A stretch of DNA of 64,000 nt. Source: Circinella umbellata. Its lineage: Eukaryota > Mucoromycota > Mucoromycetes > Mucorales > Lichtheimiaceae. Below the pieces are notes generated by a model. That model ran no database searches. It saw only the letters and a list, made by a program, of their open reading frames with translations, and was not told where the DNA came from. Location: positions 27,406 through 91,405 of the forward strand of contig JAIWNF010000102.1 of the NCBI GenBank assembly GCA_025093555.1. The letters are read 5' to 3'. Positions 5,402-55,334 of this stretch are shown in pieces. The translations under genes were made by a program, and so were the position numbers. Position 1 is the stretch's first letter. Every line of letters begins with the position of its first letter.

Positions 5402-6970
5402 ACTTTATAAAAGATGTCGATTATCTACCCCGTTGAGTCAATAGATCAGAATGTTTTTTCAACATTGATATCACATACACGCAGAAGTTATCATAATAAT
5501 TTTTATAGCGAACTAAGATCAAGCAAGATAAAACAATAAAAATTAATGTTTTATTAAATAATAATTGTAAGGATGTTTATATTTTTCTAAAAACTTTGCT
5601 AAATATAATATATAACAATAACAATAACAATAATGATGATGATGTAATTTCCAGCTAAGAATTATTATGGATCGCAAGTGATAGTGAAAAAAGAAATGAT
5701 GACAATGATTGTTTTAAATGAAAATAACCTAAAGAAATGTCCAAAAACTAGAGTTTATATTGATCAATTTTAACTATGACAAATACTCGAATTAAAATAA
5801 TAACTTAGATAAACGACTGGTATAACAAAGACTCATATGAATCTATACTAAAAAAACAGTAGACCTATTTTGATATGTGTTAATTTACAAATTAAAACAT
5901 AACTTGTATCAGTAGTATTAATTATTAGAGATACTATACGTAATATATACTGTATGAAATATTCGATTCTTCTAGTTTTTTCAATATCATACGTACTTCA
6001 TTGATATTTTTATATGATATACCTACAAGTAGTACAACTATTATTATTTTGTATATCTTGATATCTAATTCTCATGTATAATAGTTTTTATTTTTTAATT
6101 CATTATTATGTACTATTGTAATATTACTTTCTTCTCTACTTCCATATTTTTAACAAATATATGTTCATCAATAATTATTTAAAGCTAGATACACAATTTG
6201 ATGAACAGAATAATACAAATCGTGTATGTATTTTAATCTATGTACGTAATAGAATAATAAGGCTGATAATATCAAAATAATTATACGAATACATTAAAGA
6301 TATGTGATAAAATACTAATCATATTTAAAATTTCACAACAAGTTATAGGTATATGAAAGTAAATTTGACATTAGCAATACCAGCTCGTACCCTGCTTTGA
6401 TAACTTTTATTATTAGTATAGCTAGGAATATATATATAGAGTATCTTTTTTTCTATTACGTAGATTTATTTACACTTCAATTAAATTATATCTTTCATAT
6501 ATAAAAACATCATAATATTAGCTATTAAACAGTTATAATTACTAAGTGTCAAAAAGACATCTATATTTTATTGATAATCTAAATACACAGAAGTTGCGAA
6601 CAAGTATTTGTATCAATATGATAACAAATACCTCATGAGTGATACTGTTAAAAGGATTTATAAATAACCTACACAAAATTTATATAACGATTTTTAAAAA
6701 GTTGGAAACTGCACAAAAAATGTATATATGATAAAACTACACAAAAAATGCACTTTAAATGTATTCTGCACGAAAAAATACTACACAAAATTCATTCTGC
6801 ACGAAAATTTACAGTACAAATATACAGTGTAACGTAAAACTAGTTGGAGTTCTTTATTTATCAGAAAAAATTACGTCATAAAAAAAATATAATTCACATA
6901 AAAAAAAACTGAAGTCAGCGCACAGCATAAATTTTTTTCATGTTAACCAGAAACAAAAGAAACAAGTACT
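5402..6970. other. AT-rich spacer downstream of Fanzor gene
   Basis: No gene seen. The right part (about 6705-6825) repeats the ACACAAAAAAT and GCACGAAAA motifs of the 5.3-kb tandem duplication, so 5.3-6.8 kb could be one element. I see no transposase or clean terminal inverted repeat. Confidence 0.35.
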
Positions 6971-6999
6971 TACTTCACCCCAGTTATTTAATACATGAA

Positions 7000-7021
7000 T
7001 GCCAGCACATCTTTACTGGCA
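7000..7021 (-). other. short perfect hairpin just below Fanzor stop
   Basis: TGCCAG and CTGGCA form a perfect 6-bp stem around a 10-nt loop, starting 24 bp past the Fanzor stop codon. TnpB and Fanzor guide RNAs are typically encoded at or beyond the 3' end of the nuclease gene, so this is a candidate structural piece of a guide RNA. It could equally be chance. A strong donor-like GTAAGT follows at 6973-6968 on the same strand. Confidence 0.25.
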
Positions 7022-7044
7022 GTTTTAGTTTTCTTTTATAGCTA

Positions 7045-10000
7045 TTATTCTTCTTCACTCGCAATTTCTTCTCGAACAAGTTCTTCTTCTTGCATTTGTG
7101 CATTAATATGTTGGTTTTGATTATCAGGACGTCGAAGGTATAATGGTCTTGAGTTAGGATCACCATTGCTATTGATATAAGCTGTAAATACTCGTCCAAT
7201 ATTATTTGCAGCGTTAAGATCCCTATCTATTACACGACCTAATACATTTTCACCATTCTCGTCAATTCCTCGTTCACAATGTCGACACCATCGATATGGA
7301 TATACATTACGCCTATAACCAGCTATATATACAATATTATTATTACGTATTATTTTAAAAAGAGAAGAGAAAGTATGATCATTTAGTTTTTAAAATATTC
7401 AATAGTAGCGTGATATTTTTTCTTTTCAAAAATCATCAAGTTGGAAACGATACAAACCAGCACGCACGCGATCAGGACATTGTGATGTACGTGTTAATGG
7501 ATTATTTTCTTCATCACAGCACCAAAGTATCTTTCTTCCCTTTCTGTTATTTCCAGTAGTTCTTCTTATTTTTTGTTTTCTATATTTTAAGAAGAAATAG
7601 AGTTAGTTTCTCACTTGAATAAAAAGAAAAACAATTAATATGATTTATCTTACCGATGATTTGTACATATCCACATATCTCTATCTGGATCACCCCGACT
7701 TTGATGAACTAAAGATACTGTACGATTATGACATACAGAACACATTATACTTGTGTAAGACTCGTTAGTTAATATAACTAAAGTCCGACGTGCCAACACT
7801 GCACGAAATGTCTATATAATAATAAAGAAAAAGAGGTTGAAAAATGATTAAAATCCTGAATTTGTATGATATGATGCTTTAATGTATATAAATGGTCACA
7901 TACTTCCACTGGAGTAGGTTCATAACCCCTCATACTTGGTCTAAGCCTACCGTCACCATAAGCAACAATGGTTGGCAAGGGTGGCACATATCCAGGTTGT
8001 CGTCGTCGTTCTCGACGAACTGCTCGTCGATGATTTTTACGTTCTTTTTTTGAATGTCTGAAAAAGGTAGGGAGTTGAGGCGGAAGTTGTGGCTGTAAAT
8101 AACACAAAAAAAATTAGCAATTTCATACCAATGAATTTAATAATACAAGTGGATATACATACATCGTTTTGTTCATCCACACCAATTAGCAAGTTGGCTA
8201 ACATTTCCAAGGCACTACGATGTGCTCCAAAATATCGCATACGCATTTCACGATGGCGGTAATGAAAATTAAAGTTTTCATATATTCTATAGTAAAGAAT
8301 GTTAGCTATTATGAAGTGTTGCGTGCAATATAGACTTTTTTTTTTAAAAAAAGAAAAAAAAAACTACTCACTCTGTATGAAATTCACCTATCATACGAAT
8401 GTATTGAATGAAATTTCCAGTTGTAGTCACTGTTGCTGGAACAAATCCCATCATATGGTAAAGCAGATGTAAGTCGGTAGCTTCTCGACCACGTAATGCT
8501 TCTTCAGCGACGTATTGACGTCGGTTTTCAAGCTCTCTGTATTGAGACCACTTGAACAAAGATTGGACTCTATTATTTAGGTAAATAGTTATAATATAAT
8601 TAATGTATGCCAATTATAATAAATTATTATCTTAGTTAATATTACTACATATTAAAAGAAAAAAAAACATACTGATATTGTCCGTTATGTAATTTTATTG
8701 TGTGCTGTTCACGTTGTTGATCTGTTTCCAGCGCATCCAGTGTATCCACAGCAGTGACCAAAGAACGAATGCCTATTTGTTTTATTAATATAGATAATTT
8801 TTTAAATAACAGTAAGTACACATTTGCTCTTTGGTAAAGCACAGTTATAGCAATGTAACAATAAGTACGTTTATTACTGTACCTGGATCAATATATACTA
8901 AGCGAGAGTCAGCGGCGCGTTGTTGAGTTAATCCCTGAGGATTTTTAGAGAGATGATACATCCCACGTCGCCATGCTGTCAAGTCTTGATTACGAGGATA
9001 TCGTACAACTTCTCTAGAGGACTGTGGCAATCGCTCTAAAATCATATACGATTAAAGTTAAAAAAAAAAATAATGGGATATAAACATTTTGGTACAACAT
9101 CAAAATAAAGTTGTAATAAGCAGTATATTTACCACCACGGATAGTTGCGATTGGTCTTCTGAACGTCAGTGACACCCCAACACCATCAGTTTCAATATAA
9201 TTGTTGAACAAATACCGTTCACGATGTTGAGATGGAAACATACCGGCTTCTATAAATTAAAAGGACACTCGTGCTATTCATCAGTTTTTGCTACGCCTTG
9301 AAGAAAATCATTGAAAAAGATCTTATTTCAAATAAAGAATACTTGCCGTCAGTTTCCCAATATGTACAGCGGCGAGGTATAACGTGATTCAAATTAAATA
9401 TATCCTCCCATATTTGTTCCATTTGAACAGAAGAAAGTGCTCGAAAGGCAGCAATTGTGATTAGTCGATGTTGTCGTCTTCCTCTTGGTGGGTTAGGTGA
9501 CTAATAGCATGTATCCAACGTTTATATTAGAAGATACTCTGTTTAAAATATACATTGAATATTAATAATACAATAGAAAATGCTTACCATGATATGAGGA
9601 GGCATGTGGGCGTTAGGGTACTGAATTGAATAAATTTTTAAGATATGATATAGTGACCGTTGATCGATTGGCATGTAAGCCACTTGATGCTTTGCAACAG
9701 GAAGTACAGTCCACCGTCTTACACCATTTTCTTCTATTTGGTTCAGTAAATATACTAAATAAGTAGGCAATCGTTGATAAATGTTTACTTGTTGCACGCT
9801 ACTTGGCCTTTCAATGATACTTTGGGCATTTTCATCAGCAAACGCTGTTTGAAAAGCTTGATGATGTTCTCTGCGTGATGTAAAGCAAAAGAAAAGAAAA
9901 TAAGTTCGTTAAATACATAGAATAGTATTATACAGTAAAAAGTATCAGGTACTGTAATAAAAAAAAAGTGACACTTACGCGTAATAATTATTTACTCTGT

Positions 10001-11503
10001 TTCGGATGGCAGCGGGAAACATAGAAATAATATTGTTCGGGAGATGATCAGATCGGTCCACGAGTTGCTTGTAAATTTTATTTGCTGTTAGATTAAAAAA
10101 AAAGAAAGATAATAAGAAGTTATTATTTATTAATTTCAGCAATGTTAACAGTAAACATAAATTATAATAGCAAAGCATGATTTAATACGTTACCCAAAGT
10201 ATTAGGTGATTGTCGTAAGTTTATATTAAGCTCGGTAACCAATCCATTAATGTAAGATAACCATACTCTTTTCAAAAAGTCAGGAATATTCATAAGCAAG
10301 TGATTACGGGCATCTATTATAAATGGTAATAAATGACAAAAATTAGACTCTTGTATAGGTAACAAAATAAAATATAGAATATCAAGGGACGACGATAAAA
10401 TTCAACAATACATACTTGTCATCGCTTTTCTGGCAAAATTTCTTCTAACTTCGGAACGTAAACCAGGATCCCATGCAGGTACTGCGTAATAAGCTAATAG
10501 TATTTAATTAGAGCCTATTACAGTACATAATCATGCACTATTTGGTAATTCATAAAAACAAATGTAAAGCTTACCTTGACCATTATTTTGTACACGAGCA
10601 GGATTAAAGTGATTTGTAAATGTATTATCAAGTTCAGGGTAAGGTGTTGGCTAAACAATATATGTATATATGTATATGGTTAATAAGTTATTCATGTTAG
10701 GCATGTGGACAGTCAATACATAACTCTATAAACAAAACTTACTCGAGCAAGAGCTTCACCAGGTGGTGTCGTCACCAAATGAAAGGCATTTTCCCAAAAG
10801 TTTTGATCTGTTAATACAGGACGAGTGACATTGGCAGGATCTTCAACAGATCGTAACACATGTAACGTTACAAGGTTCATTGCATCCCGTCGAAGAATAG
10901 TATATTCTTCTGCAAGTCGACGTATGAAATTCTATAAAAAAAAACCACAATTCAGTAAATACTTTTCATTATATATTTGCACGTGAAGTTTTAACTACAA
11001 CAAAAAAAAATGCATATATAATTACCAACATATCTGGCGTACCAGGTGGTGGCTGCCTTGCACCTGCCAAATAAGGATTTTCTAGAATGGTTTGGAGTTT
11101 ACATTCACGTGTAACAACTCTGTTACGTCTTCTTGCTGCTCTGTGATTATCGGGGAAAATTTCTCTCAAATATGCTCTAGCTTGTTCTCGTCCTGATAAA
11201 ACACATAATAAAAATAAGTAAATACATCTAATATTGTTATATTGATATGCGTGTGTGTATAACATAAAATACTACATTATCCAAATACTTACGTTCCGCC
11301 AATGTTTCCGGTCTTGGATTTGGACCCCGTGTTACGGGGAATACCACTTCTTGGTCTTCAATAATATCAGCATCAGATCGATTACTTAGAAATGAAAACC
11401 CTGACCCGTTTGAATTAAATGAATTTATGGAATCGATTGACATGGCATCCTCAGTGTCGTCATCACCTACGCTGTCGGCACTATCAATATCCATAGGCTC
11501 CAT
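7045..11503 (-). CDS. Fanzor (eukaryotic TnpB-like RNA-guided nuclease), 18 exons
   Basis: Eighteen exons splice to one open frame of 952 residues: 11503-11293, 11192-11026, 10931-10743, 10650-10575, 10493-10416, 10349-10194, 10084-9979, 9870-9588, 9500-9347, 9249-9133, 9035-8883, 8772-8673, 8569-8372, 8286-8163, 8092-7904, 7811-7654, 7579-7458, 7322-7045. Introns are 66-135 bp. Intron 9 would use a GC donor, and the exon 17 donor (GTTTGT) is the least certain. The N-terminus is acidic (MEPMDIDS). RuvC-I is VYIDPG (Asp562). AYGDG (about 748-752) precedes NESYTSIMCSVC, which holds the alternative catalytic Glu784 and the first zinc pair Cys791/Cys794. WCRHC (Cys873/Cys876) completes the finger, and DRDLNAANNI gives RuvC-III Asp895. 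These are hallmark Fanzor/TnpB motifs. In the family the protein cleaves DNA guided by an RNA made from its own locus. No stop or frameshift is seen, so the gene looks intact. Its length suits Fanzor1. Confidence 0.87.
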
Positions 11504-11530
11504 GGCTGGAGAATAAGAACAAGTAGCAAT

Positions 11531-11603
11531 AAAGAAAATGTAAGAAAATGTAAGAAAATGTAAGAAAATGTAAGAAAATGTAAGAAAATGTAAGAAAATG
11601 TAA
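11531..11603. repeat. 10-bp tandem repeat in Fanzor 5' leader
   Basis: About eight copies of TAAGAAAATG lie 30-100 bp upstream of the Fanzor start codon, between it and a TATA-like element. On the transcribed strand the array is pyrimidine-rich (CATTTTCTTA). Confidence 0.85.
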
Positions 11604-11650
11604 AAAAAAAAGAGATGATGAATAATTTTATGAGGTTTACAGAAACCGTT

Positions 11651-11658
11651 CTTTTATA
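11651..11658 (-). promoter_or_regulatory. TATA-like element upstream of Fanzor
   Basis: TATAAAAG on the minus strand, about 150 bp upstream of the Fanzor ATG, between the two tandem arrays. It is plausible as the core promoter, judged from sequence and position only. Confidence 0.4.
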
Positions 11659-11695
11659 CTTAACCGTTGGCTAAATAGATCATTTTCAGAACAGC

Positions 11696-12206
11696 CATTT
11701 TATCAATGACTATTTTTTATCAATGACCATTTATCAATGACTATTTTTTATCAATGACCATTTTATCAATGACTATTTTTTATCAATGACCATTTATCAA
11801 TGACTATTTTTTATCAATGACCATTTATCAATGACTATTTTATCAATGACTATTTTTTATCAATGACCATTTATCAATGACTACTTTTTATCAATGGCCC
11901 ATTTTATCAATGACTATTTTTTATCAATGGCATTTTATCAATGACTATTTTTTATCAATGAACATTTTATCAATGACTATTTTTTATCAATGACCATTTA
12001 TCAATGACTATTTTTTATCAATGACTATTTTATCAATGACTATTTTTTATCAATGACCATTTATCAATGAACATTTTTTATCAACGAACATTTATCAATG
12101 AACATTTTTTATCAATGAACATTTATCAATGAACATTTTTTATCAATGAACATTTTTTATCAATGAACATTTATCAATGACTATTTTTTATCAATGACCA
12201 TTTTAT
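11696..12206. repeat. short-period tandem array (TATCAATGACYATTTT)
   Basis: About 510 bp made almost wholly of TATCAATGAC/TATTTT and TATCAATGACCATT units with a period of roughly 14-18 bp, drifting to TATCAATGAACATT near the right end. It lies just upstream of the Fanzor promoter. It is a minisatellite and codes for nothing visible. Confidence 0.9.
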
Positions 12207-12912
12207 CACTAAAAATAAAGATAGGAAAAGAGAGAGAAAAAGCCAATGAGACCTCAAAAGAACAAAATTTAATTGTAGCCAATATAATTGAGGTGTAGTC
12301 AATTAAAACAAAATATCCTCTCTATTTATACATGAGATCCTCATCATCACTTCAGCAGGATGTATCAATTATGTTTCTGAGAATTGTGATAATAAAGAAA
12401 ATGATTTTTAAATTAAACTTTGTGCGGTTGACGACATGATCCGTCTACACAGCTGTTACCCATTTGTAGGCGAAGGTCATTGTAGTCTCCCATTTTAATA
12501 AATATAACTTTTAACCTTTTATCATTTTTAAAGACCGCGGACGTCCGTATTTCTGAAACACCCAGTCGTCAGATTAACAGCACCAGACATACTTGTGATT
12601 ATATCTTTTACTTTAAGCAAGAAAATATGTGTACCATAAAAAGAAAGGGAACAAGATAAATGGTGTACGTACAATAATTACGTATTGTACCATTTAGTAT
12701 AAATGTTTTGATTTAATTATGAGTATATGATATAATGAAAGCAAAGAATAATGGTTAATTCCATTACCGGAAAAAGATTTATTGAGAAAAACAAAGAGTT
12801 ACTTTGAATACTACTTTTTGTTTGTTGTTATTCAATATAATAATTATACAGTAGAGGAAAAGTGTTTGATTGTTATTGTTACTACGTACCAACAAATATT
12901 ACGAATACTTTT
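12207..12912. other. intergenic with a near-palindrome
   Basis: No gene seen. A near-palindrome at 12658-12695 (AAATGGTGTACGTACAATA against ACGTATTGTACCATTT) could form a cruciform or be a tiny foldback element. Confidence 0.4.
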
Positions 12913-14722
12913 CTACAGTATTTCTACGTATACGTACATGTTGTTATTAAAAATTATGATACATACAGGTCTCCAAGCTTTACACCATTTCTCTCTTTTA
13001 GGGTACCAATATTGGTACATATAATCATAGAATTCAACATAACCATTTACATCGTGCCACATTGATTTAAACGAATCCTATAGAACCTCAAACAAATCAA
13101 TACTATCACAATTCATCAAAAGATTCAAAGAATTACGAGCTTGCCGTTGTTGTTCTTTTGTTTCATGTGTAGAATTTTCGACTTTGATTTTATAGAAATT
13201 AAAACAATGAGTTACAAGTTAATACATCGTACCAAAACAAATAATAACGTTTCATATATAAAATAAAACCAAATTCACTTACCATTTTTTTTATATGTTT
13301 CTCCCATGCTCTTTTAATGTGCCAATGACACAAAAGAACCTGAACAACATCACCCTATACTTGGTTTATAGCATTTATTTCAACAGGACTACAATCGATC
13401 ATTATAGACTTAGGGACAAAGTTGATGACACTTTTTAACCATTCAAACCAACTAGCAACAGAGACTGTGGTTTCCGAGTTTGTTATCATAAACCCAACAG
13501 GACAACCTTTGTTTGTATCAAGATTTTTGCAAACAATGGTAAATAAATAGCAACTATCAGAACTTCGAATAAATGATTTACATGTTTTATGTGTCGAATC
13601 AACACAAACAATATCCTGCCTTTGAAGAATCTAAAAAGAAATACCATAATAATCAATATCGAATCAATCATCAATTAACAACAGATCATTTTTACTTACT
13701 GGTTTTTGCCATTTGGATATCCAAGCAATTGTAAATCTATTATTATCTTCATCAATATTTGACAATACATCATATCCTTCATCATCAAGATACTTAAGCC
13801 AAAGACGTACACTATCTTTATCAAGTGCTGCTTTTTTTGAAAGTCGAGCAAGTTTTGTTTGAATGAGATTTTGGACGTCTTTATAATGAATAAGTTCTGA
13901 CACAGGCAACAAATTTGGGTTATTATCAAGCTATACATTTGTTTTTTATAACAATTAGTATTACATCATTATTATCATATATTAAGTTTACAAAACATAC
14001 GTAATCTCTTTCTTTACGCGTCAAACGCAATGCATTCTGTATAGCTTCCCAGTCCATATTTTTATCAACACGTTCAATAATCCATTTGCGAGCTTCTTCA
14101 GGTAAACGAGATGCAATAATACTTTCTGAATTTGTAGGATCATGATTATGGTGATACCAATAATAAACAGCTTCGTATGAATCATCTGAATACTTATACA
14201 AATCAATCTTAGCAGGACAATCAACTTTAGGAATCATTTTGGATGGATCACGTTTGCGTTTTTTGGAAGGAGATATTGATGATGATGACGACGAAGAAGA
14301 AGCACTTGATGCTTTACGAGGTTTTCCACCATGGTTACAAATAAAACGATACTTCATTTGATATACAGCAGGACGGCCAATTGTTTCTGACTTTTCATTG
14401 TTATTATTATCATTATCATTATTATTGTTGCTATTATTGATGCTGTTGCTATAGTTATTGTTATTATCATTGGTATTATTATTATTATCATTATTATTAT
14501 TATCATTATTATTATTATTACTTCGTTGCTTTGCCTAGGCTAAAACCATTACGAATAAATGTGGCATGATTTTGAGGAACTGTTTTAAACCATGACTGCC
14601 ATTCTTCTTCAGTGTTAAAGCTTTTACAAAAAGGATGTACGTCGTAATTGGGAGATAAAACCTAGTTCGTCAAGTAACGAACCTTTAGAGAAATGTTGGG
14701 GGTTTGAAGGAATGGCAGCCAT
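12913..14722 (-). pseudogene. MULE-type DNA transposase pseudogene
   Basis: Exon-like blocks on the minus strand encode, in order: an N-terminal piece (MAAIPSNPQHF, then a frame change to HPFCKSFNTEEEW); an Asn/low-complexity run; a FAR1/WRKY-GCM-like zinc domain (FICNHGG, CPAKI, WYHHNHDP); a helical segment; then the MULE catalytic core. The core has VDSTHKTC (first Asp), FMITNSET, MIDCSPVE (second Asp), LLCHWHIKRAWEKH, and a C-terminal YWYPKREKWCKAW block. Introns are short GT-AG (donors near 13988, 13700 and 13282). In-frame TAG codons interrupt the region after AINQV (about 13360) and after LFEVL (about 13078), and there is a frameshift near the N-terminus. The copy is therefore probably dead. 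The family inserts and excises DNA by a DDE mechanism. Confidence 0.72.
14396..14525. repeat. TTA/TTATTG low-complexity tract
   Basis: Trinucleotide-rich tract that reads as poly-Asn on the minus strand. It sits between the N-terminal piece and the zinc domain of the MULE pseudogene. Confidence 0.7.
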
Positions 14723-14812
14723 GGTCAAAGAGGAAAGTAAACAAACAAAAAAAAAGTTTTATAAAAATTGCGGATGTATAATTTAATTTACGTCACGACT
14801 TTCTGGTGATTT

Positions 14813-15150
14813 TTAGCTACGCCGTACATTGTTGGGAATTAATGCGTCATCTATCTCTTTTTCTTGTGAATCTTTCCAAGTTGAAGCTAAACCAGTATAG
14901 CCGATTCCAAAACTATTAAACAAGTTCTTTCTAATGCTCATTGGATGATCTTTTGTAATATTCATTACTTCAAATGAATGTTTAACACAATGACCATTAT
15001 GCCATACTTCTAATGGTTTTGTAATACCAATTCGTTCACTCTTTTTATCAGAACTAGCTTAACAAATATAATTCTGGATAGGTATTTCTTTAATATTTTC
15101 TTTATTACAAAAATATCTATTTATGGCTGAAAGCGTAGTTCTTCTGTCTA
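14813..15150 (-). pseudogene. retropepsin-like retrotransposon fragment (tentative)
   Basis: A minus-strand frame with good codon content runs from LDRRTTLSAINRYF to a TAA at 14813-14815, broken by one internal TAA near 15058. The segment VWHNGHCVKHSFEVM followed by NLFNSFGIGYTGL resembles the C-terminal half of a Ty3/gypsy aspartic protease (F-V core, then the IG.DLL..G-type turn). The active-site D[ST]G that should lie upstream is not visible. More coding-like sequence lies at 15240-15300. No LTRs are recognisable. It could instead be a fragment of an unrelated gene. Confidence 0.3.
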
Positions 15151-19518: not shown

Positions 19519-19591
19519 TAATACGCGCTGAACTAAATTAATTTTGCGCTATGAGAAAGATTATTTTGCGTTGTCTGGGGAATAAACTTGT

Positions 19592-19828
19592 GTTAGTAAT
19601 TTTTGCGCCAATGATTTTTTGCGTCAAAATATTTACTTCCTTTGTGCTTATAACTTTATTTTCATAATTATTTCTAAAATAGCTCATATGGAATTCATTT
19701 ATGATTATTTTTAATGAAATATTGTTTAATATATTTCCTGGTGAGCCAATAAAAAATACTAAGTGCTTGGACATACATACTTCGGTGCAACAATTCGGTG
19801 CAAAATCATTAGCGCAAAATTACTAACG
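19592..19828. repeat. inverted repeat, arms about 31 bp
   Basis: GTTAGTAATTTTTGCGCCAAT at 19592 is matched in inverse by ATTAGCGCAAAATTACTAAC ending near 19828, with a spacer of about 170 bp. It may be another small non-autonomous element next to the 361-bp MITE. Confidence 0.5.
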
Positions 19829-19840
19829 CAAAATCACATT

Positions 19841-32237: not shown

Positions 32238-33720
32238 ATGGCACTTCGTCAAGCTTACATCGTTTCAGCCAAAAGGTAAAAAAAATAAAAAACTTCCATT
32301 CTTATTTCTTTAAGAGCTTGTTTTTTTTTTGAAAAAATATATTCTCGTTTTTTCTCTTTTCTTACATATAATCTTTTAATGTTATTATTATTATAGAACA
32401 CCTATTGGTAGCTTTGGTGGCAAGTTTAAGGATTTAACTGGTAAGAATAAATAGGAACTAATATATCTTACTCTTCCAAAAAATCGAAAACGAAAACTAA
32501 TAACAAGTATGATTATAATAATATAGCTTCTGAGTTGGGTGGTTTAGCATCCAAGGCAGCCATTGCTGATGTGAAAAAAGATATTGATATTGATTCAGTT
32601 ATTTTTGGTAACGTCATGCAAACGGATTCAGCAGGTGCTTATGTTTCTCGTCATATTGGTCATCGTGCTGGTTTACCTGTTCATGTACCTGCTTTGACTG
32701 TAAACCGATTGTGTGGTTCAGGTCTTCAAAGTGTTGTGAATGCAACCCATGAAATCTTATTAGGGGATAGTGAAATTGTTTTAGCAGGTGGTGCTGAAAG
32801 CATGTCCTTATCTCCTTATACATTGAGCGGCAAGTCGCGTTGGGGAACTAAATTAGGTGTTGATTTAAAACTTCAAGATTCCATGTGGGCTACTTTAACG
32901 GATCAATATCCTAATCCTACTCCTATGGGTATTACTGCTGAAAACTTGGCTGAAATGTATAAGATTTCTAAAGAAGAATGTGATCGATATGCTGCTACAA
33001 GTCAAAATCGTTATGAAGAAGGTATTTAATAATAATAATAAAATTGAGGGGGGGGATGATGAAATTGAAAAAAAAAATGTAATTAATATGGGATAATAAT
33101 TTATAGCTGCCAAGAAGGGAGTTTTTGATGCAGAAATTACACCTGTTGATATCAAGGTGCGTAAGGGTATTGAAACTGTAACTCAAGATGAATATCCTCG
33201 TTCGGGTGTTACTTATGAAGCCTTGCAAAAGTTAAAGCCTGTCTTTAAAAAGGATGGTGTTACATCTGCTGCTAACGCTTCTGGTATTAATGATGGTGCT
33301 GCTGCTTTGATTGTTGCAAGTGAAGATGCTGTTAAAAAGTATGGATTGACCCCTCTTGCACGTGTTGTTAGTTGGCAAGCTTCCGCTGTTGAACCTACTT
33401 TAATGGGTTTGGGTCCTGTACCTGCTATTCAAGGAGCACTTAAGCGTGCTAACTTAACTTTGGATCAAATGGATTTAATTGAAGTGAATGAAGCTTTTGC
33501 TGCTCAATATTTAGCTGTTGAAAAAGAATTAGGATTGGATCGAGAAAAGACAAATATCAATGGTGGTGCTATTGCTGTAGGTCATCCATTGGGTGCTTCA
33601 GGTGCTCGTATTTTGACTCATTTGACACATGCTTTGCAACGTACTCAAACAAAATATGCTGTTGGTTCCGCTTGTATTGGTGGTGGTCAAGGTGTTGCTG
33701 TTATTCTTGAACGTGTTTAA
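32238..33720 (+). CDS. ERG10: acetyl-CoA C-acetyltransferase (thiolase)
   Basis: Four exons (32238-32275, 32397-32440, 32527-33021, 33107-33720) with GT-AG introns give 396 residues, the usual length. The enzyme condenses two acetyl-CoA to acetoacetyl-CoA, the first step toward mevalonate and sterols, and can run in reverse in ketone and fatty-acid metabolism. The nucleophile is Cys90 in NRLCGSGLQ. The catalytic His352 lies in GHPLGASGAR, and the base Cys382 in CIGGGQG. The N-terminus (MALRQAYIVSAKRTPIGSF) starts directly at the thiolase fold, and the C-terminus ERV is not a PTS1, so a cytosolic form is likely. The frame is intact. A mitochondrial or peroxisomal paralogue cannot be fully excluded. 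Confidence 0.95.
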
Positions 33721-34929: not shown

Positions 34930-35800
34930 AAAGAAGTGTAATAGGTTTAATATTCGATTGGATATATATAGAAAAAGGGGAAATGGCTTGTTATATATGG
35001 AAGAAGAACGGTTTATACATATTTTGAAATCGAAATAATCATAGATCAATCTTTGAGCGTTCAGTTGATATTCTCTAACTATTAACAATGGATTACCAAT
35101 TAGTATCCAGATGAGCACGTATCATATACCAGTGATCAATTTAATTGTCTTTCTGAACCTGTTGTAACAAGGTGAGTAAGAAAATAAACTAATGAGTACT
35201 GGAACTATTTTTTTTTTCAAAAATCAATGATAACAATGATAGTTGTAATCCAGCGCTTCATACAGCTTTCAATATGCAAAACAGTTACTTATCTAACACT
35301 TTGTATAATGGTCTAAAAGACGAAGGATTTGTTATTAATTTTCTGTTAGAGATATACTAGTAATGACCAGGTACTTTGGATTTTTTTACATTATTTAATC
35401 TTTGCTAACTTTTATGTAAGTTTGATAAAAAAAAATAGGGTTTGTGGCTTCTATTCTTAGTATAAATCTGGTTTATATAAATATACTATTATAATATTCA
35501 TATTGTATTATTATTTGTCAACTGAAAAGACTCTATTTCAATTGTTAGTGTTATTATTACTTTTTAGCTTAAAATGTTTTCATAGAATTAGAGTACCCAT
35601 GAAAAAAAATAGTTGAGCGTCAGGTAAAAACCATAGGTGGTCCGTGCATTTCGTATAGCTTTATTGTTTTTTTAGATTAGTTAACAACAACTGACAATTT
35701 ATTTGATGGAATAAAAAATAAAAAGATCTCATAACAATAATAAACAGATGTCATCATTATATAAAAAATAATTTCAGGCCTATAGTTTTATTATACAAAT
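34930..35800. repeat. 5' flank repeat of micro-exon gene copy A
   Basis: Sequence shared, with drift, between copies A (34.9-35.8 kb), B (38.9-39.9 kb) and D (56.2-57.85 kb). It includes ATATACCAGTG, TCATTGATAACAA and GGTCCGTGCATTT blocks and a TATA element (TATATAAAAA near 35756). This is the promoter-side part of the duplicated unit. Confidence 0.6.
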
Positions 35801-37469
35801 ATGATTCTAGTGTATGTGGAGAAAGGTAATAAAATTATGGGACTTGACTACAGGTGTGTTGGATGCAGCTCGTTTTACTCTAGCAATGCATCACGCATCC
35901 ACTTTGCTAAAAATCATTCCCTTCTTCCTCTTCCGAATGTTCGCTTTCCACCACTTCCTGCTAATCCGACTCCAGCCCATACATCGGCTCTTAGGGTAAT
36001 GCAAGCTGGTTCAAACAGAGTAGTCAGAAAATATAAAGATCAAAAAATCGCACAAAGGGACATCGCACCCATTCGACGATTTCGTCGTCTGGGCATGTCT
36101 GTTTCCATCGCTGCTCCAGCTACGACTGCTCCGGCTGCAAGTAGAGGTACTGTCACTTCTGGTGTTAGTGGCTCTGCTGGTGCTAGTCGCGGTTCCCGTG
36201 GTGGTACTGGTGGTGGTGAGAAAGGTGGTGATGAAAGTGAACCAATGGAGGTTGACTAGGTATTTGGAGATCCAGAAAATATGAAAGTTGGTTGGCGGAA
36301 ACAGGACCATGGAGGTGGATGTCCTCCTCCCCCCACAATGTCACTTCATTGTGGTTCTAGAGGAAAAGGTAAGTTCCGTCTAACAGTATTGCATACAAAA
36401 ATTTATTTAATAGTGTTATTCTAATATTATAGCTATTATATATTTTGTAGTTGGTTTTTTTATTATATACCTTTAAAAAAAACTCACAAAAGTAAGTTGC
36501 ATACTATTTGTTTGTACCTGTCAAAAGAAAGAACTTTTTTATTGACGCGCTTTTTTCTTTAACAATTTAAAAGTATAGAAAACCAACAAAAAATACCATA
36601 AAAAAACACCATAAAATATGTTAAAGTTGCTTTCTTTTCTTTTTTTTATTGGTGTGTAACTTTTTATATTATTCTATGAATTGAATATTATACATGTTAA
36701 GATATTGGATATTAATACAACAATCTTCTTCTTTGTAGGATCGCCTCCCTTTGCGTTTTACTTTTTTTTTCTTATTCTTAGGGGTATGTACGTAAATATA
36801 ATTGAGTATTTATGGAAAAGAGAAATAATAGGGTCAATAATTTACTAGTTCTGATATACGTATGTACTTTCTTTTTTTATTATTATCATTTAGGTTGCAG
36901 TTGAAGAGCTTGCTCACTCTCTCCCATTTCTTTGTACATATTTTTCTTGAGGTAATTACTTGATCCGGTACAGGGAACTAATGACAGTGGTTTACTTGTA
37001 GTGTACTAATATCAAAAGCTTTTTATGCTATCCATATATGTATATAGGTCGAGCTGGCTCCCTCTTGTATATATTTCAAATACTCTTCGTTATATATCTT
37101 ATTTATTTCAAGCAGTTTTGGTGCTGTTACTAAGGTAAATACTCTATATATATAATCATGGATATGGATATGGATAGGGTGGTATATGAAGATGATCTGG
37201 CAATTACAATACTAATTATATTTAACGTAGCGCACATCCATATGTATGTAGGTCGAGCTGGCTCCCTTTTTTGGAGTATACCTTATCTAATTTCCAAATT
37301 TTTGCTGTTGTTTTCGAAATAAATATTCCATAAAAGTATAATGGATATGAATATAGATAGGGTAACAAATGAAAATGATATCGGAGCTACTGATCAGTAT
37401 TATTATAATTCACATCCATGTATATAGGTCGAGGTTGCGCTGTTCCCTTTCTCCATCCTTTTTGCTTAG
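35801..37469 (+). pseudogene. micro-exon gene family, copy A (decayed)
   Basis: Exon 1 runs to a GTAAGT donor after 36368. The frame from 35801 contains VMQAGSNRVVRKYKDQKIA and DIAPIRRFR, matching copies B and D, and ends EPMEVD at a TAG (36257-36259). Micro-exons follow at about 36739 (ends in a stop), 36894-36951, 37048-37134 (87 bp, open: VELAPSCIYF to GAVTK), 37252-37318 (stop; donor GT changed to AT) and 37428-37469 (VEVALFPF, stop). Splice acceptors are TATATAG/GTCGAG. It has no ATG matching the MTRST start of the other copies. This is the most diverged of the three long copies. I do not recognise the family. Confidence 0.6.
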
Positions 37470-39748: not shown

Positions 39749-39929
39749 TAACAAAAATTACGTGTATGTGGAGATAGTAATAAAATAGGTGGTTCTAGAC
39801 TGTGCGCGGGATCCAAGGAACGGGTAACTGTAATGCAGCTATAAAATAAAATTCATTTCCATGGCGGCGCGTTTTTTTCTTTTTCTTTTTGTTTCACCTT
39901 TTTTCTTTACCTCTTATTTTTTTAACAGT

Positions 39930-42467
39930 ATGACTCGCTCTACTTTCACAATTCCTGCTACTGCTCATAACAATGCCCGCAATCCGAATGGTTCGCGCAT
40001 TCGTTTACAAATTTTTCGTCCTCCTGTTACTCCTCTCCAAACCCGACCTCCTCGTTGCACCCCACCTCCTCGCCGTAGACCCATTCCTGTCTTTGTATCT
40101 AGCTCCGGCTGGGTACAGGCAGGTTTGGGCTCGGTAATTCGAAAAATAATGAACCAAGACATTGCAAAACGAGAGATTGCACCCCGCCGCCGGCTCCGTC
40201 CTTCTCGCATGTCTCCATCTCGCGTTGGTTCTTTCATAGCTCCTGCTATTTCTCGCCCAGAATTTTCTGGTGCTTCTACTCCCGTCTCACCTGTTTCTTC
40301 TGCTCCCCCGTCACCTGTTTCGTCAATCTGCTCGCTCTCAACCCTTTCTACTCTCTCGACCCTCTCCTCTGGTGCTTCTGCTCCAGCTTCTCCTACTTTG
40401 TCAACTAGCTCGGTTGTTTCTGGTGTTTATGGTGCTCGTAGTAGAGAAGAAGAAGAATATGAATAAGGTGAAGAAGAAGAAGCAGAAGAAGAAGAAGAAG
40501 CTAAAGAAGGTGATTGTGAAGAAGGTGAAGAAGAACAAGGTGAAGAAGAAGAAGATACTATGATGGAGATAGATTGGCGCTTTGGAGACAGTGAGGACAT
40601 GGATGTGGATTGGTGGGAGGGGGATATGGAGGTGGATATCCTCCCCCCCAATGCCACATCATTATGGTTCTAAGGAGGTAAGTTCTGTCTTGAATTGTAT
40701 ACAAAAACAACCATTTTATCGTGTCTCTAATTATCAATGTTCTATTTTGTAATAGTAGATTTAAACCTTAAAAAATACAAAAGTAAGTTGCAAAATACCT
40801 GTTTGAAACATGTTTTTTTACTTGTCAAAAAATAAATAACTTGTTACTGACACGTTTTTCTTCTAAAAACTTCAGAAATCAGAAAACCCCATAAAACAAA
40901 AAAAAAGCATAAAACCCAAAAAAACCCAAAAAAAATCGAAAAACCTTAAAAACCCTCAAAAAACATTCTTTTCTTTTCTTTTCTTTTTTCTTGGTAAGTG
41001 ACCTTTTGATATTGTTCTATGAATTGGATATAAAGCATCTTAAGATATTGAATACTAATACAACAATCTTCTTCTTCTTTGTAGGCTCGTTTCCCTTTGC
41101 TTTTTACTTTTTTTTTTCTTTTTCTTTTTCTTTCTTTTTTCGAGGTACGTAAATATAATGGAGTATTTATGGAAAAGAAAAATAATAGTGTCAATAATTT
41201 ACTACGTAGTTCTAACATTATTATAATTATTTAGGTTGTAGTTGAAGAGCTTTGCTCACTCCCTCCCATTTCTTTTGTACATATTTTTTTTTGAGGTAAT
41301 TACTTGATCGAGTACAGGAATTAATGACAGTGGTTTACTTGTAGTGTACTAATATCAAAAGCTTATTGTGCTATCCATATACATATCTAGGTCGACCTAG
41401 CTCCCTCCTGTGTATATTCTTGAATACCCTCCCTCTTTATATACCCTATTTCTTTCATATACCCATTTTTAGTCAAGGTAAGTATCTTATAAATATATTA
41501 TGAATATTGTATACGGACAAGGTGATAAATAAAAATGATACGTAGTGTAGTTACAGTACTAATCATATTTATCATAACTCATACTCATATATGTAGGTCG
41601 AGCTGGCTCTCTTTCCGTTTTTTCAAGATACCCCATTTATAGACCATACCCTATTTATTTAATGTTTTTGCTGTTGTTTTTGAGGTAAATATTCCAAATA
41701 TATAATATGAATATGAATTATCGATAGAGTGAGAAATGAAAATGATATCGCAGTTACTGATCAGTATTCTGATAATTTACATTCATGTATATAGGTCGAC
41801 CAAGCTCCCTCTTTTTTTGTTCTTTCATATACCCTATTTTTAGAAGATACCCTATTTATTACAAGTTTTGTTACTACCATTGAGGTAAATATTATATAGA
41901 AATATTATGAACATGGACATGGATACGCATAAAGGCGTTTAATGGAGACGATATTGTAGTTACTAATCATATTTATCATAATTCACATTTATATTGATTT
42001 AGGTCGAGGTTGGGCTGGTTCCCCTCCTCCCTCGTTTTTGTCTATTTATTTTTCCAATTTTGATGTTTTTTTTTATTAGAGGTACGTTGAATTTATTGCA
42101 TTGATAAAGAAACGTTTATTCTAGTGATTTATGCTATAGCAACTAATGAAACATTTATTATATATTTTATTAACAACTAGGTCGCGCTGAGTCCCTCTAG
42201 AGGTTCGCCTTTGTTGATGGCGCAATACATGGTTTTCGAACCATGGAGGTATGTAAAATATAATTATATCAGCGTGTAAATAATGGAGGATTATAAGAAT
42301 CGACGATGTTTAACCAATCTATAATTTATTTTTTTTATTTAAATAGACCCGTAGTGGTGTTACGGGCTGGTTTGTCCCGCTTGGTGGGGGCGGAGGAGAA
42401 TGGCATCTCGGCGGATGGCTTGGTGGAGAGAAGGCAGGGTAGTGTATGTTCATACTATGGTTGGTAG
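39930..42467 (+). pseudogene. micro-exon gene family, copy B (most complete)
   Basis: Exon 1 (39930-40677) starts MTRSTFTIPATAHNN just after a pyrimidine tract and CAG, so an upstream exon is possible. It encodes Pro/Arg-rich, then VQAGLGSVIRKIM, then Ser/Pro-rich sequence. A TAA at 40464 and a C-run slip near 40650 break an acidic tail (MEIDWRFGDSEDMDVDWW). Micro-exons: 41085-41144, 41235-41295, 41391-41477, 41597-41684, 41795-41884, 42003-42081, 42181-42248, 42347-42467. Exon 6 is a clean 90-bp phase 0-0 unit (VDQAPSFFVL to TTIE). Exon 4 keeps length and phase with one TGA. Exons 5 and 7 are one base off. The last two exons read VALSPSRGSP, then RPVVVLRAGLSRLVGAEE to a TAG. Function unknown. 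The hydrophobic units and acidic first exon resemble no family I can name. Confidence 0.62.
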
Positions 42468-50260: not shown

Positions 50261-53200
50261 TTATTGAGTATGGGGAGGGGGGAGAGGCGAAGAAACTATG
50301 GCATCCTCAGGGTTTGGTTCATCTTCATTAAAGTCATCATCAGGATGACTTAAACGGTCAATTTCGCGGAGAACATTAATGAGAGCTGGCCATGTTTTTT
50401 TCCATTTTCCAAGTGACAAACCAATTTCAGAGCGCGGGAGGCGGTTGATGATGAAATCTATAGGCTGGAGTTCTGGAGGCAATATGGGAAGGCTACCAAA
50501 TATATTGTTGAGATCATCAAGTAGTGGCTGAAGCATAGGACAGGATTTGTAATGTTCTCGGTTGGCTGCTATGAAACCACAACGACAATTTTTAAGTGGA
50601 TAAGATGGTAGCCAATGCATACGCCATTTTACTAATCGATGTCGATCACGCGGAAAAGCTGGTAGATAAAGTATTGGATCAATTATACGGTTATGTCGAA
50701 GACAGCGTATTGTTTTACGTTTGGAGCTAAGATTCTGGTATTCCTCATCTCGTTTTTGTTCAATTGCTTTGTGAATTGGATCTTTTGGTGGACTGGTGCT
50801 GTTTTTCAATCGGTTATGGAGCTGATAAAATGGATTATTTGAGGTGAGATGTTTCCATTGTTTGTCACAGTCTTTATCCCAAAGAAAAGATAATTCAATT
50901 GATCGGGCTAGTGTTGTTACTGGAAGCTCTTGTAGTCGGGTTACAAATTTTAGCTATAGAGTACGGACCCTATGTTGAATCGAAGGAATGTTCGCCAGTG
51001 CCATAGGTACTATTGTTGGGAAATGTGTTGAACTATTGCGGTTCATCGCCATTTTGATACAGCTTCTTTGTGTGTTATTAAGTTTTTCTTTTTGTTTGGC
51101 TGATAATGTGGTAATTGCTAATCCATATTCGAGAACTGGTCGTATAAATGTTCGATATGCTCGGATAACTAGCCATAGGCCAGCACCATACTGATGAATA
51201 CCTAGTTGTCGAAGTAGTGCCATGTTACCAGTTGCTTTAGTGATGCGTTGATGTATAAGCTGGTCAGAATTAATACCATTATAGTCGAATGGTATTCCAA
51301 GGTATTGAAATTGTTGGACTTTCGGTAGACGTTCGCCATATAGGAAATAGTCAGAGGAAGGTGGTTGGTGGGTTGATGTAATAGAAGCTGACTCGTCATT
51401 GATAGTTGGTGGTGGTTCAATGATCGCACATTTGTCTGGGTGCCATCTGTATCCGTATTCAAGGGAATGCCGTTCTGCTATATGAAGTAGCTTGGTAATA
51501 TCCTTTGGGGAGCCTAGGAGAACCACATCGTCTGCATATAATAATGAAGAGATGATTGTTGTGTTGATATCTGGACGATTTTTATTGGGACGGCCATTAA
51601 TACCACCTTTATAGTGTCGTTCTTGAGCAGCTGCTTCAGAGGTTCCAGCTTTAAGTGTTGCACGTAGTTTTAATGGATTGTGACAATGTACAATCATATT
51701 GAGGCGTAGCCTTTTAGGAAGTGTATCAATGAAAACAGCATAAAGCAGTGGGCTAAGTATAGAGCCTTGTAATACTCCTTTTTTTGGGTATATATATCGT
51801 GATTGGTAATTTTGTAAAATAACAGCAATTTGCACATCACCAAACATATGTTTAACCAGGTGGAACATGGCACTCGGAATTTGGTGTTGTAACCTTGACC
51901 ATATAATATCACGATCTACAGAGTCGTATGCTGAGCGTATGTCCATATATATTTGTGTTGGAAGAGTATTGTATTGTTTTTGGTATTGGTGTATTAACAT
52001 ATTAAGAGAGAAAGCTTGGTCAAGAGCTCCTCTATGGTGACGGAATCCCCCTTGGGAAATATCCAAAGAGTTAATAGTACTGAGCAGTTTTGGTAATAAG
52101 CATCGTTCAAGTATTTTTCTGAATACACTGGTGAGACTAATTGGCCTAAAATTACCTGCCACTGTTGGGTCACCTTTTTTGTAAATGGGAACGACTTGAG
52201 CTGTCCGAAAAGATGTTGGTATATATGACCAGTTCCAGCAGAGCTTGAAAAACTTGCTCAAGGTAAATGATAGCGAATGTACTATTGGCTTTAGCATTGC
52301 ACCAGTAAGGTGATCATTACCTGGAGCCTTGCGTGGTGCCATTTTTTTAATTAGGTATTCGATTTCTTCAGCTGGAAAAGGGTTGTCATTTTCGTCATGT
52401 TCAAAACCTCATTGCTGTGAAAACGCATTGGACCTTGTGGTGTTAAGTGGGTTTGGTCTTTCACCACCAAAAACTTGAGATAAATGTGAAACCATTTTTT
52501 CTGTTGCTTTTTGTGGGCCTTCTACATCTGAAAATATATATGTTGGTTTTCGATTGCTATGCATCCTCTTAATGACAATATTAGCCTCATTGGGGGTGCA
52601 TTGCCGAGTTTAGTGCAAAATTGTTTCCAGGTTAAACGGCGAGTTCTTGATAGTGTTTTGGAGAAATCATCACATTTTGTAATATATACTGACCATAATT
52701 TTGCACGTATAATTAAATTATTTGGTGCTCTACGCCATTTTCGGTATGCTTTTTCTCTTAGGTCAGCCTTAAGTTGTAGCTCTGCATTCCAGTACGTCTT
52801 CCATGTTTTAGGGCGTGGTTTTGTACGAGACACACTATGGTCAAGTGCATCATATATAGCCGAAGTTATATCACTGCCTAGTTGTTCGATGGTTGGTGGG
52901 TGTGGAATGCTGATGGTGCTATGACAAAGCTGCTCAAGTACTATATTGATGCTGTTGATATTGCTCTCGAATTTTTAATAAATAATTGTCTAAGTTCTGG
53001 ATCAGAAAACCGTTGGAGTTTCCAGTGTTGACGAGTAGAATTTGGGACTGGTAGCGGTTTCCATGGTGAATGTGGTGAAAATGATAAGGTGCAGAGATGG
53101 TGGTATGTTGAAAGCGAAGTCATATCGTGAATATTCATAGTTGGATTGATTATGGCGTTTTCTGGTGAAATGAATAAGTCAATGATACTTGTTCCAGCTG

Positions 53201-53750
53201 CTGTACGAAATGTTGGTTGTGTGCGGGTCAGTGTTCCATTCCATACATGTAGACCATTCCCAGTAATCCATGGTTCTAATGCATGAATTCCACGAGTGTT
53301 GTTTGAATGATCACCAGTCAGCATTTTTGAACGCGCATTTAGATCTCCTAAGATGATAGTGTTATTTGTAATATTGAGCTGGTCCAGCAGCTCGATAGTA
53401 GTAGTGTCATTTAGAGTTGGTGGTGGTGGAAGATATAGACCATGAAAGGTATAGATACCAATTTGAAATGATAAAGAGAAACGGCTTGTATTAGGGAGAT
53501 GATGGATGTGTAAATTGAGATTAGGGCGTACAAGAAGGGAGATACCACCTTGTCCCCTCTTTTTGATGTCAGGTTGAATTGCATAGTTGTGATACTGAAG
53601 CTAGTCAGTCTGTAGTCGACCACGGATGAGAAAAGTTTCTGTGATAAGAATTAAGTCGATATTGTTGTTGTTGCAGAATTTAATAATTTCATCTGGTGAT
53701 TTGGCAACACCAGTTGCATTTAATAAACCAATTTTTAGTTGGTCTATCAT
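50261..53750 (-). pseudogene. LINE ORF2: endonuclease-reverse transcriptase, broken
   Basis: Starts at the ATG that shares its A with the ORF1 stop (MIDQLKIGLLNATG). Endonuclease block: LILITETFL (Glu), IILGDLNAR (Asp, Asn), SIIDLFI and STYHHL. RT block: [30 protein letters not shown] (motif A), [12 protein letters not shown] (B), YADDVVLL (C), RWHPDKC (D), FQYLGIPF (E). The C-terminal cluster is NCRCGF followed by H and C (REHYKSCP). Defects: TAG at 53601-53603, frame change near 52980, frame change at a five-base G run near 52597, TGA at 52409-52411, and TAG at 50954-50956. Final TAA is at 50261. The protein would nick target DNA and reverse-transcribe the element RNA. Confidence 0.88.
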
Positions 53751-55045
53751 TATATTTCCATGTGTTCCGTCTTGTCGATGGTGTCATCCTTACCACTAGA
53801 CAACAAGTTGCGAGCTTCATTAAGTGTGCTGATAGGACGATGTTGGCGGGGTGTTGGTTTTGGGTTCATGTCTTGGAATTTGGTCCAGTATGCTGAATCG
53901 ATGTGATGCTTATCTTCTTTCGAAAGAGAAGTGAAGTGTCTGAGTATGGCGATACCTAGATGTTTTTTTGACATGCGTAAGCACATAGCTAACATCCGTT
54001 CTTGATAGATTTTTTTAGCTTCATCCGCTCTTTCGGTTGCTGATAGTTTTGCCAGAAGAGTGGGGTCACCAATGGTGTTTGCTGAGATTGGGTCAAAATC
54101 ATTTTTGGGTGTTAATTTTGCGTGGGTGAGTAGATCACGAAGTTCTGCTTCATATGAAGAATGAATTAAGAGTGCTACGATTCCATGTGCGGGAAATTGA
54201 ATGTCGATCACGCGTTCTGTGGCAACGCCTACCAAACGAAGAGCTTTCCTGATTTCGCTGTGTAATGTGCGACGTGGCGATCCCATATAGACAAAAGAGT
54301 ATGCTGTGGTATCATTTGCTGGTGTTAAAAGGCGATGTGCCCAATTAAGTAATTTTTCAGAAGGTGGTTGGACAGCCTCTTTTTTTTTTCTTGGTGTGAT
54401 GCTTCTGCCTGTAACCTTTGCGTATGATGTTGCCAAGGTATTTTGCTGTAGATGGTGGTGACGATGCTTGTGTTGGTGACGTTGCTGTTGTTGATGATGG
54501 GGCATTTGCTGCTCAAGTTGTTTGAGCTGTTTCGACTGCATTTCTTTATCTTGTTGTTGTTGCTGTTGTTGCTGAACCTTAATTTCGGCTTTTCTCATTT
54601 CCCACTCTTCAATAGATAAAGCATGACGTGATTCGCACGTGCCTGTGAGAAGAAGGTCCTGATCTGCGGAGACATCATTAGCAACTTTCTCTTGTAGAGT
54701 AGTGGTTTGATGCTGCTGTGTTTCCAAATATTGAAGTTTTGCTTTATAGGTTGCTAATTCGGTTTTGAGCGCCTCGTTTTCTTCAATCAGCTTTTGGAAA
54801 AGCTGGAGTTTGCCCTCTTGAACTTTTAGTTCCGTTGCTTGCTCTGTTATTGTTTTGGCCATGGCTATTTGTTGGTGGACAATAAAATGAGCCCATTCTG
54901 GAACGTGACTCAGGTCAGGTTGGCTGGATGGATTTGTAGATACTGAAGAGTTCTGAAGGAGATTCTGTTCCCATTGGCTACTACCAATTTCTTTGGCAGT
55001 GCTTAGGTTTAGATCTTCCGTATGTGGTTGTGGCTCGTTGTTCAT
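53750..55045 (-). CDS. LINE ORF1 (RNA-binding/gag-like, coiled coil)
   Basis: Open frame of 431 residues from its first ATG (MNNEPQPHTEDLN); the frame is also open upstream to at least 55231 but without another ATG. An acidic/Ser-rich start is followed by a coiled coil with heptads (about residues 60-125: ELKVQEGKLQLFQKLIEENE), a Gln/His-rich run, and a C-terminal folded region (SFVYMGSPRRTLHSEIRKAL, then LGIAILRHFTSLSKEDK). No CCHC zinc knuckle is seen. LINE ORF1 proteins bind the element RNA and form trimers through such coiled coils; that is family knowledge. The stop TAA overlaps the ORF2 start, which suggests coupled reinitiation of translation. Confidence 0.75.
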   Translation of the reverse strand: MNNEPQPHTEDLNLSTAKEIGSSQWEQNLLQNSSVSTNPSSQPDLSHVPEWAHFIVHQQIAMAKTITEQATELKVQEGKLQLFQKLIEENEALKTELATYKAKLQYLETQQHQTTTLQEKVANDVSADQDLLLTGTCESRHALSIEEWEMRKAEIKVQQQQQQQQDKEMQSKQLKQLEQQMPHHQQQQRHQHKHRHHHLQQNTLATSYAKVTGRSITPRKKKEAVQPPSEKLLNWAHRLLTPANDTTAYSFVYMGSPRRTLHSEIRKALRLVGVATERVIDIQFPAHGIVALLIHSSYEAELRDLLTHAKLTPKNDFDPISANTIGDPTLLAKLSATERADEAKKIYQERMLAMCLRMSKKHLGIAILRHFTSLSKEDKHHIDSAYWTKFQDMNPKPTPRQHRPISTLNEARNLLSSGKDDTIDKTEHMEI

Positions 55046-55334
55046 TGTTCTGTTAGTAGTAGTAATTCTCGATTTATTGCTATTAAGAATTTTTTGACTG
55101 TGTAACAATGTGGTGTTATTGGTACGATGTTTAAGGACTCGCTGTCCCGATGAGGAGGTGGTTGTTGAAATGTTTAATTTGTTTTGTGTAAACACGTTTT
55201 TTGTAGCTTTTTCTTGTTTGCTTGATGACAATGCGGCTTTATTATAAAAAGGGAAAGGTGTGTATTTTGGGAAAGGATAAAAAAAAGTATAAAAGGAAGT
55301 GTTATTTGCCGCGCGCGTTACTCGACTACGTCTC

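Follow-up and report, generated by a model that had tools for sequence, protein, structure and literature searches.

In a 64,000-nucleotide stretch of the genome of the mucoralean fungus Circinella umbellata (contig JAIWNF010000102.1, positions 27,406 to 91,405 of the forward strand; referred to here as ‘the window’), an intron-rich gene for a putative Fanzor1-type nuclease (7045..11503, minus strand) lies within a non-autonomous mobile element of the Mutator-like element (MULE) type. The element spans ~7.98 kb on the minus strand (6846..14824), its borders being marked by a sharp stop of homology among copies. An earlier note on this DNA had pictured a lone intact gene among dead transposons, with no transposase partner beside it. 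Neither part of that picture holds: the gene belongs to a young multi-copy repeat with MULE-type ends, and a truncated MULE transposase gene was found upstream, inside the same element.

Our genome search for copies scored the best 49 of 109 candidates, and all copy counts given below are lower bounds. It returned at least seven intron-bearing, near-identical copies of the gene: six full ones (named by contig as C5—the window copy—C101, C174, C136a, C136b and C197) and C195, which is cut off by a contig end. Protein searches, each scoring ~8000 candidates, identified five relatives, namely P0001 from C. umbellata, P0002 and P0005 from C. minor, and P0003 and P0004 from Lichtheimia ornata; this number, too, is a lower bound, and the family may be larger.

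With its 17 predicted introns removed, the gene yields a frame of 940 codons with one terminal stop, distributed over 18 exons on the minus strand as judged from the spliced frame and the comparison of copies (exons 1–9: 11503-11293, 11192-11026, 10931-10743, 10650-10575, 10493-10416, 10313-10194, 10084-9979, 9870-9588 and 9500-9347; exons 10–18: 9249-9133, 9035-8883, 8772-8673, 8569-8372, 8286-8163, 8092-7904, 7811-7654, 7579-7458 and 7322-7045). The earlier note was right about an open 17-intron frame, but its length of 952 codons has to be corrected to 940. Sixteen introns have GT-AG borders and one (intron 9) GC-AG, and the six full-length copies agree at every one of the 17 pairs of splice-site dinucleotides. 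Deposited Circinella protein models, which may themselves be automatic predictions, agree with 12 of the 17 junctions (1-5, 8-11, 13, 14 and 17) at no more than one mismatch per 11 residues (P0001 or P0002); junction 6 matched P0005 weakly, with three mismatches, and for junctions 7, 12, 15 and 16 there was no match among these models. A possible 18th mini-intron of 39 nt, in frame and with GT..AG borders (7239..7277, minus strand), coincides with a stretch absent from P0001; its removal may leave 927 codons and a C-RVIDRD joint resembling that protein. Chance is excluded as the origin of this frame, because 940 codons across 17 consensus introns recur in other copies and the product shares 35% identity with proteins of another genus.

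The predicted protein contains the motifs IDPG with D550, NESYTSIMCSVC with E772, WCRHC at 860 and DRDLNAANNI with D883. D550 (RuvC-I; codon at 8887..8889), E772 (the alternative RuvC-II glutamate within NExxTSxxCxxC; 7761..7763) and D883 (RuvC-III, DRD; 7219..7221), all encoded on the minus strand, are invariant in an alignment of three full-length proteins, as are T775, S776, C779, C782, W860, C861, C864, D881 and R882; the two others in this comparison are the full-length Lichtheimia homologues P0003 and P0004, 35-36% identical to the window protein. All catalytic and zinc-binding motifs named in the earlier note were thereby found, at residue numbers 12 lower than it gave. The two CxxC pairs of the zinc ribbon (C779xxC782 and C861xxC864) are separated by a 78-residue insertion. 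A TDG triplet (T482 D483 G484) is invariant in five aligned proteins; its assignment to the WED domain comes from the published description of Fanzor1 (PMC10711439; statements on published work refer, here and below, to the available parts of the cited papers). The pattern D-X(125,275)-[TS][TS]-XX-C4 zinc finger-X(5,50)-RD, which defines the TnpB/Fanzor superfamily (Bao and Jurka 2013, PMC3627910), is present with spacings of 224 and 17 residues. Against Pfam PF07282, the window protein scored 20.8 bits, under the cut-off of 26.3, and its Lichtheimia homologue P0003 38.4 bits, over it. DPG in RuvC-I, an alternative RuvC-II glutamate beside the zinc finger and TDG are the described marks of Fanzor1 (PMC10711439). 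Because all three are present, we assign the gene by sequence to the Fanzor1 type, with an RNA-guided DNA endonuclease as its predicted product; the Fanzor identity proposed earlier, which motifs and homologues support, is narrowed to this class.

Further members of the superfamily occur in the same genome. One locus (L003, contig C134:1001332-1004550) encodes a distant Fanzor1 paralogue with ADPGI, STDG, TSEIRTS and DRDVNAARNI; aligned by hhalign after its exons had been joined by hand, it gave a probability of 98.5 with the window Fanzor family. Two loci form a second TnpB/Fanzor family: L001 (C200:169642-172806), part of which matches the solved TnpB-like protein L79 (9b0l; E 5e-8), and L002 (C156:666525-669677), which has lost the RuvC-III aspartate (DRYLNS). 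This family is perhaps of the Fanzor2 kind. A scan of viral contigs for Fanzor relatives gave nine pattern matches, none of which was confirmed.

The element’s left terminus (14785..14824, minus strand) starts with CGGCGTAGC at 14824 and, when set by eye beside the left ends of Fanzor-less MULEs, shows a degenerate resemblance to the MULE terminal repeats of this genome. Its right terminus TGACGTAATTTTTTCTGATAAATAAAGAACTCC (6846..6880, minus strand), ending in ...GAACTCC at 6846, has homologous counterparts at the right ends of Fanzor-less MULEs: the pattern TGACGTAATTTTT.CTGAT.AATAA.GAACTC is common to elements of ~3 to 3.7 kb that contain MULE transposase sequence and have no match to the Fanzor protein. 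It had 19 genome matches at no more than three mismatches, from Fanzor-bearing and Fanzor-less elements together, and its reversed control had none. Target duplications of 9 bp are exact in C136b (ATTAATCAT) and C197 (ACTATGATG) and measure 8-9 bp in C174; no matching duplication was found in C5, C101 or C136a. With its MULE-type ends and 9-bp duplications, the carrier is a non-IS607 eukaryotic transposon. The left flank of a relative on contig C37 is identical to the right flank of C101 (ACACACTCT), suggesting either that copies have exchanged sequence or that the assembly is mis-joined.

Between the two genes, two tandem-repeat arrays precede the Fanzor start codon (11532..12208, minus strand). 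Comparison with longer relatives on contigs C37 (L043) and C63 (L046) placed a junction at 12959..12965 (minus strand), where a MULE intron is joined to the pre-Fanzor region at a 7-bp microhomology, TATGTAT; from its sequence, the window type of element looks like the product of an internal deletion. Both longer relatives run on into a gene whose product has a Myb-like domain (PF13921, 7e-8), and that on C63 also into the pre-Fanzor region. This longer form was pieced together from separate contigs, none of those examined spanning the whole. Rfam returned no match at gathering scores over 6600..15000.

On the same strand as the Fanzor gene, the transposase remnant (12960..14722, minus strand) was recognised by profile matches to a FAR1-like DNA-binding region and a MULE DDE region. 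The latter was above the cut-off (PF10551 MULE, 1.8e-8) for a segment in which the tyrosine of the close relative C57 was put in place of an in-frame TAG stop (13357..13355); the FAR1 match (0.0016) was below it. The C-terminal SWIM-finger part, present in C57, is missing. Owing to the truncation at 12960 and the TAG, the element has no complete MULE transposase of its own. The same TAG occurs in all six Fanzor-bearing copies with a visible exon and in C37, which implies that the transposase was lost before the spread and that the element has to be mobilised in trans. The MULE exon had 68 genome matches at E≤1e-8, those just named included. The transposase gene of C57 itself carries a deletion. 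Its surroundings (C57:697850-720500) hold two Fanzor-less MULE copies in inverted orientation, separated by ~18 kb and sharing the same left flank, which together make up a large palindromic duplication.

Comparison of the copies dates the spread as recent. Pairwise, the exons of the seven young copies differ by 0 to 1.2% and their introns by 0 to 0.44%; C136a and C136b show no difference across the whole gene. The frame is intact in five of the six full copies, the exception being C101 with two 1-bp deletions (codons 621 and 633). Substitutions among the seven copies comprise 17 nonsynonymous and 25 synonymous changes as compared to an expected ratio of 2.97:1 (P = 2.5e-6), or 11 and 12, respectively, when C195 is left out (P = 0.005), a pattern consistent with purifying selection. 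C189, an older copy, has diverged by 0.129 at third and 0.057 at second codon positions. Another copy, C15, whose aligned frame holds 13 premature stops, has decayed, and decayed or partial Fanzor loci lie on C142, C189, C124, C79, C127 (three right ends), C183 and C185. What we observe is thus a recent spread of a coding-competent gene, and one at the DNA level, because all six full copies retain their introns; an origin of the copies as retro-copies was ruled out on the same ground. As a separate observation, introns of the six full copies are less variable (8/1636) than the estimated synonymous sites (12/~705; P = 0.006).

Downstream of the stop codon, the element ends in 199 noncoding nucleotides (6846..7044, minus strand) that we consider a putative source of a guide-RNA scaffold. 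Their predicted fold has a z score of -2.61, with 1 of 200 shuffles being equally stable. A hairpin TGCCAG..CTGGCA has eight pairs, every one of which can form in 9 to 11 of 11 copies. In C189, C124 and C15, divergence from the window is lowest in the class made up of the final 64 nt (0.048, 0.033 and 0.016). The first 135 nt show no unusual conservation and are more diverged than introns in C142, C15 and C195. A scan for bacterial promoters and terminators found nothing in this region, a result of little meaning for a fungus.

The insertion sites bear a one-sided signature. In seven of nine independent left flanks (present in C5, C101, C136b, C174, C197, C37 and C46; absent from C136a and C57), a CCC is found 10-12 bases outside the left end, abutting the 9-bp target; in C174 it would stand at 9-11 bases if the duplication is 8 bp. 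Given the frequencies of CCC and GGG in the window (0.0051 and 0.0057 per position), seven of nine has P ~7e-15. Among elements whose Fanzor gene was read, five of six have the CCC, as compared to none of six Fanzor-less relatives (Fisher P = 0.015). None of 15 independent right flanks showed the mirror image, GGG after the right target. Immediately beyond the right end, an A is the first base in 15 of 16 rows, or in 14 of 15 once a duplicate is set aside, versus two of six control right ends (P = 0.009).

The flanks entering these counts were defined as follows. Left-flank controls were C57, C101:675 kb, C123, C147, C189 and C207/C136; a matching 9-bp duplication was present in C147, C189 and C207 and absent from C101 and C123, and no such comparison applies to C57, whose right end was not found. 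Control right ends were those of C101, C123, C147, C189 and two on C207. The inverted duplicate of C57 was counted once, as was the duplicated insertion represented by C207:101 kb and C136:607 kb. C145 and C207:60 kb, with one usable end each, were left out of the left-flank controls, the latter being kept among the right ends; C11 has no usable left end, C124, without an intact right end, was left out of the right-flank count, and C183 and C185 represent one common flank.

A CCC on one side only fits a TnpB-type target-adjacent motif (TAM) standing before a guide that is copied from the right flank. We therefore propose, with a probability of about 0.6, that the Fanzor1-type nuclease, carried in many young copies by a MULE with a broken transposase, cuts the donor site left empty by excision and thereby causes the element to be copied back. 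Under this proposal, another MULE transposase would move the element in trans. The 3’ end would be transcribed as a guide-RNA scaffold running into the right flank (6845 and below), where the guide would begin at the duplicated target. With the right flank as the source of the guide, the empty site left by excision would carry CCC directly 5’ of the matching sequence; the nuclease would recognise CCC (or CCCA) as its TAM and cut, and repair from a sister copy would restore the element. Insertions beside CCC would then persist through cleavage and copy-back. A further step, which we put forward more tentatively and hold at less than even odds, is that the insertion sites preserve a fossil trace of the nuclease at work. 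The nuclease would then act as a filter on where its MULE carrier survives, in that only insertions 3’ of CCC-A, oriented such that the matching guide lies next to this TAM, would have been rescued.

Several observations weigh against this proposal. The CCC was noticed first and tested afterwards, the P values are uncorrected and the samples are small. C136a bears the Fanzor gene but lacks both CCC and a matching target duplication, CCC occurs without such a duplication in C5 and C101, and one control (L065 on C207) has CCA at the CCC position. None of the 32 predicted pairs of the 3’ end showed compensatory changes among 11 copies, and the last 64 nt are least diverged in just three of five copies, C142 and C195 being the exceptions. 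Some Fanzor1 guide RNAs are described as holding the target duplication in the scaffold rather than in the guide (PMC10711439), in which case the start of the guide would shift. As to the protein, the Fanzor family profile matched no chain of the solved-structure set at E≤10, other sequence searches of solved structures with this family gave unrelated matches only (E ≥0.2), and a sequence search of them with a Fanzor paralogue as query gave one unrelated match (E 0.26). An AlphaFold2 model of the proxy P0003, built on a five-sequence alignment, was unusable (mean predicted local distance difference test score 35.4, predicted template modelling score 0.26).

The main rival attributes the preference for CCC to a transposase: CCC-A would be the oriented target preference of the MULE transposase moving this subfamily, and the nuclease would be uninvolved. 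Target preferences are common among transposases, the left and right termini of the element differ, which would allow insertion by an asymmetric complex in a single orientation, and two of the CCC-flanked left ends (C37 and C46) belong to elements whose Fanzor part was unread. Set against this are the Fanzor-less MULEs with homologous termini, including C57 with its almost identical left end, which are without CCC throughout, and the one-sidedness of the motif, because symmetric integration is not expected to orient the element against CCC. We regard this explanation as a serious competitor, albeit one that falls short of an even chance. It is unlikely, in our judgement, that the nuclease is inactive and the gene a passenger which looks intact since its copies are young. 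Their low exon divergence left a short time for decay and C101 already has its two deletions, but the synonymous bias, with or without C195, and the roughly twofold excess of third- over second-position divergence in C189 run counter to it.

The earlier note had left the choice between recent activity and host retention. The former is borne out by at least seven near-identical copies at different sites, accompanied by decayed ones; a host-retained, that is domesticated, gene appears very improbable. An intact frame and a synonymous bias would suit such a gene, whereas the copy number rules it out, and the copies have common transposon ends, some with target duplications, where a domesticated gene would be single-copy and without them.

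Elsewhere in the window, a MITE-like (miniature inverted-repeat transposable element) repeat of ~308 bp with ~94-bp inverted ends (19525-19832) recurs in 19 other places of the genome. By eye, minus-strand frames at 50261-55339 resemble a LINE-type (long interspersed nuclear element) retrotransposon with endonuclease-like and reverse-transcriptase-like parts, and three frames (35786-36259, 39834-40466 and 57763-58584) have a common VQAG..V.RK...Q.I.KR..AP..R.R-like stretch, loosest in the first. A frame at 32451-33720 is, we presume from its translation, an acetyl-CoA acetyltransferase-like host gene.

To our knowledge, the role of Fanzors for their eukaryotic carriers is not settled. The present family makes this question testable by offering mapped ends, target duplications, an intact nuclease, Fanzor-less controls with homologous ends, a one-sided target signature and a stated TAM (CCC/CCCA) and guide start. 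If the proposal is true, genome sequence alone would suffice to infer the TAM and guide start of a Fanzor1, as it does for bacterial TnpB elements. The element also links one particular MULE lineage to a kind of Fanzor1 carrier that previous work on Mucorales had described as having no transposase, and adds a protein family without a sequence match to any solved structure searched here. Judged by titles and abstract openings, the literature matches listed contained no Fanzor-MULE unit with a transposase remnant and no TAM read from insertion sites.

With the Fanzor1 proteins of published structure, SpuFz1, GtFz1 and PpFz1 (PMC10432273, PMC11423790), the window protein has its class in common, unlike them in that its family profile matches no solved chain. 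RNA-guided cleavage with a 5’ TAM has been published for SpuFz1 and GtFz1 (PMC10432273, PMC11423790); the TAM predicted for the window family is CCC/CCCA instead of CATA or TTAAN, as published for this group. Bacterial IS607 TnpB with the alternative glutamate (PMC10711439) resembles the window protein in its DPG and alternative RuvC-II glutamate, the window gene differing in being intron-rich, TDG-containing and MULE-borne.

Closest in kind are elements of other Mucorales. MCi-2 of Mucor circinelloides, described with variable 5’ ends and target-site duplications of the form ATAATTNNNN(N) (PMC3627910), is alike in its near-identical Fanzor-bearing 3’ part, its variable 5’ parts, a truncated transposase in one subfamily and target duplications that begin with a motif on one side only (ATAATTNNNN). 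It differs in having 11-12 bp duplications and Crypton sequence, as compared to 9 bp and MULE sequence in the window element. Fanzor1 genes were also reported from MuDR-type elements of Rhizopus, Phycomyces and Mucor (ROr-4, PBl-3 and MCi-4) that have 9-bp duplications and are described as encoding no MuDR transposase (PMC3627910). The window element resembles these in its 9-bp duplications, its Fanzor1 gene, the lack of a working transposase and the order of its host, to which Circinella and Lichtheimia, the sources of its closest Fanzor homologues, likewise belong; it differs in its truncated MULE transposase and one-sided CCC-A, and in the Myb-like gene of its longer C37 and C63 relatives. 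Fanzor1 has been known on MuDR-type elements of Mucorales since 2013, and the present element is a variant of this kind.

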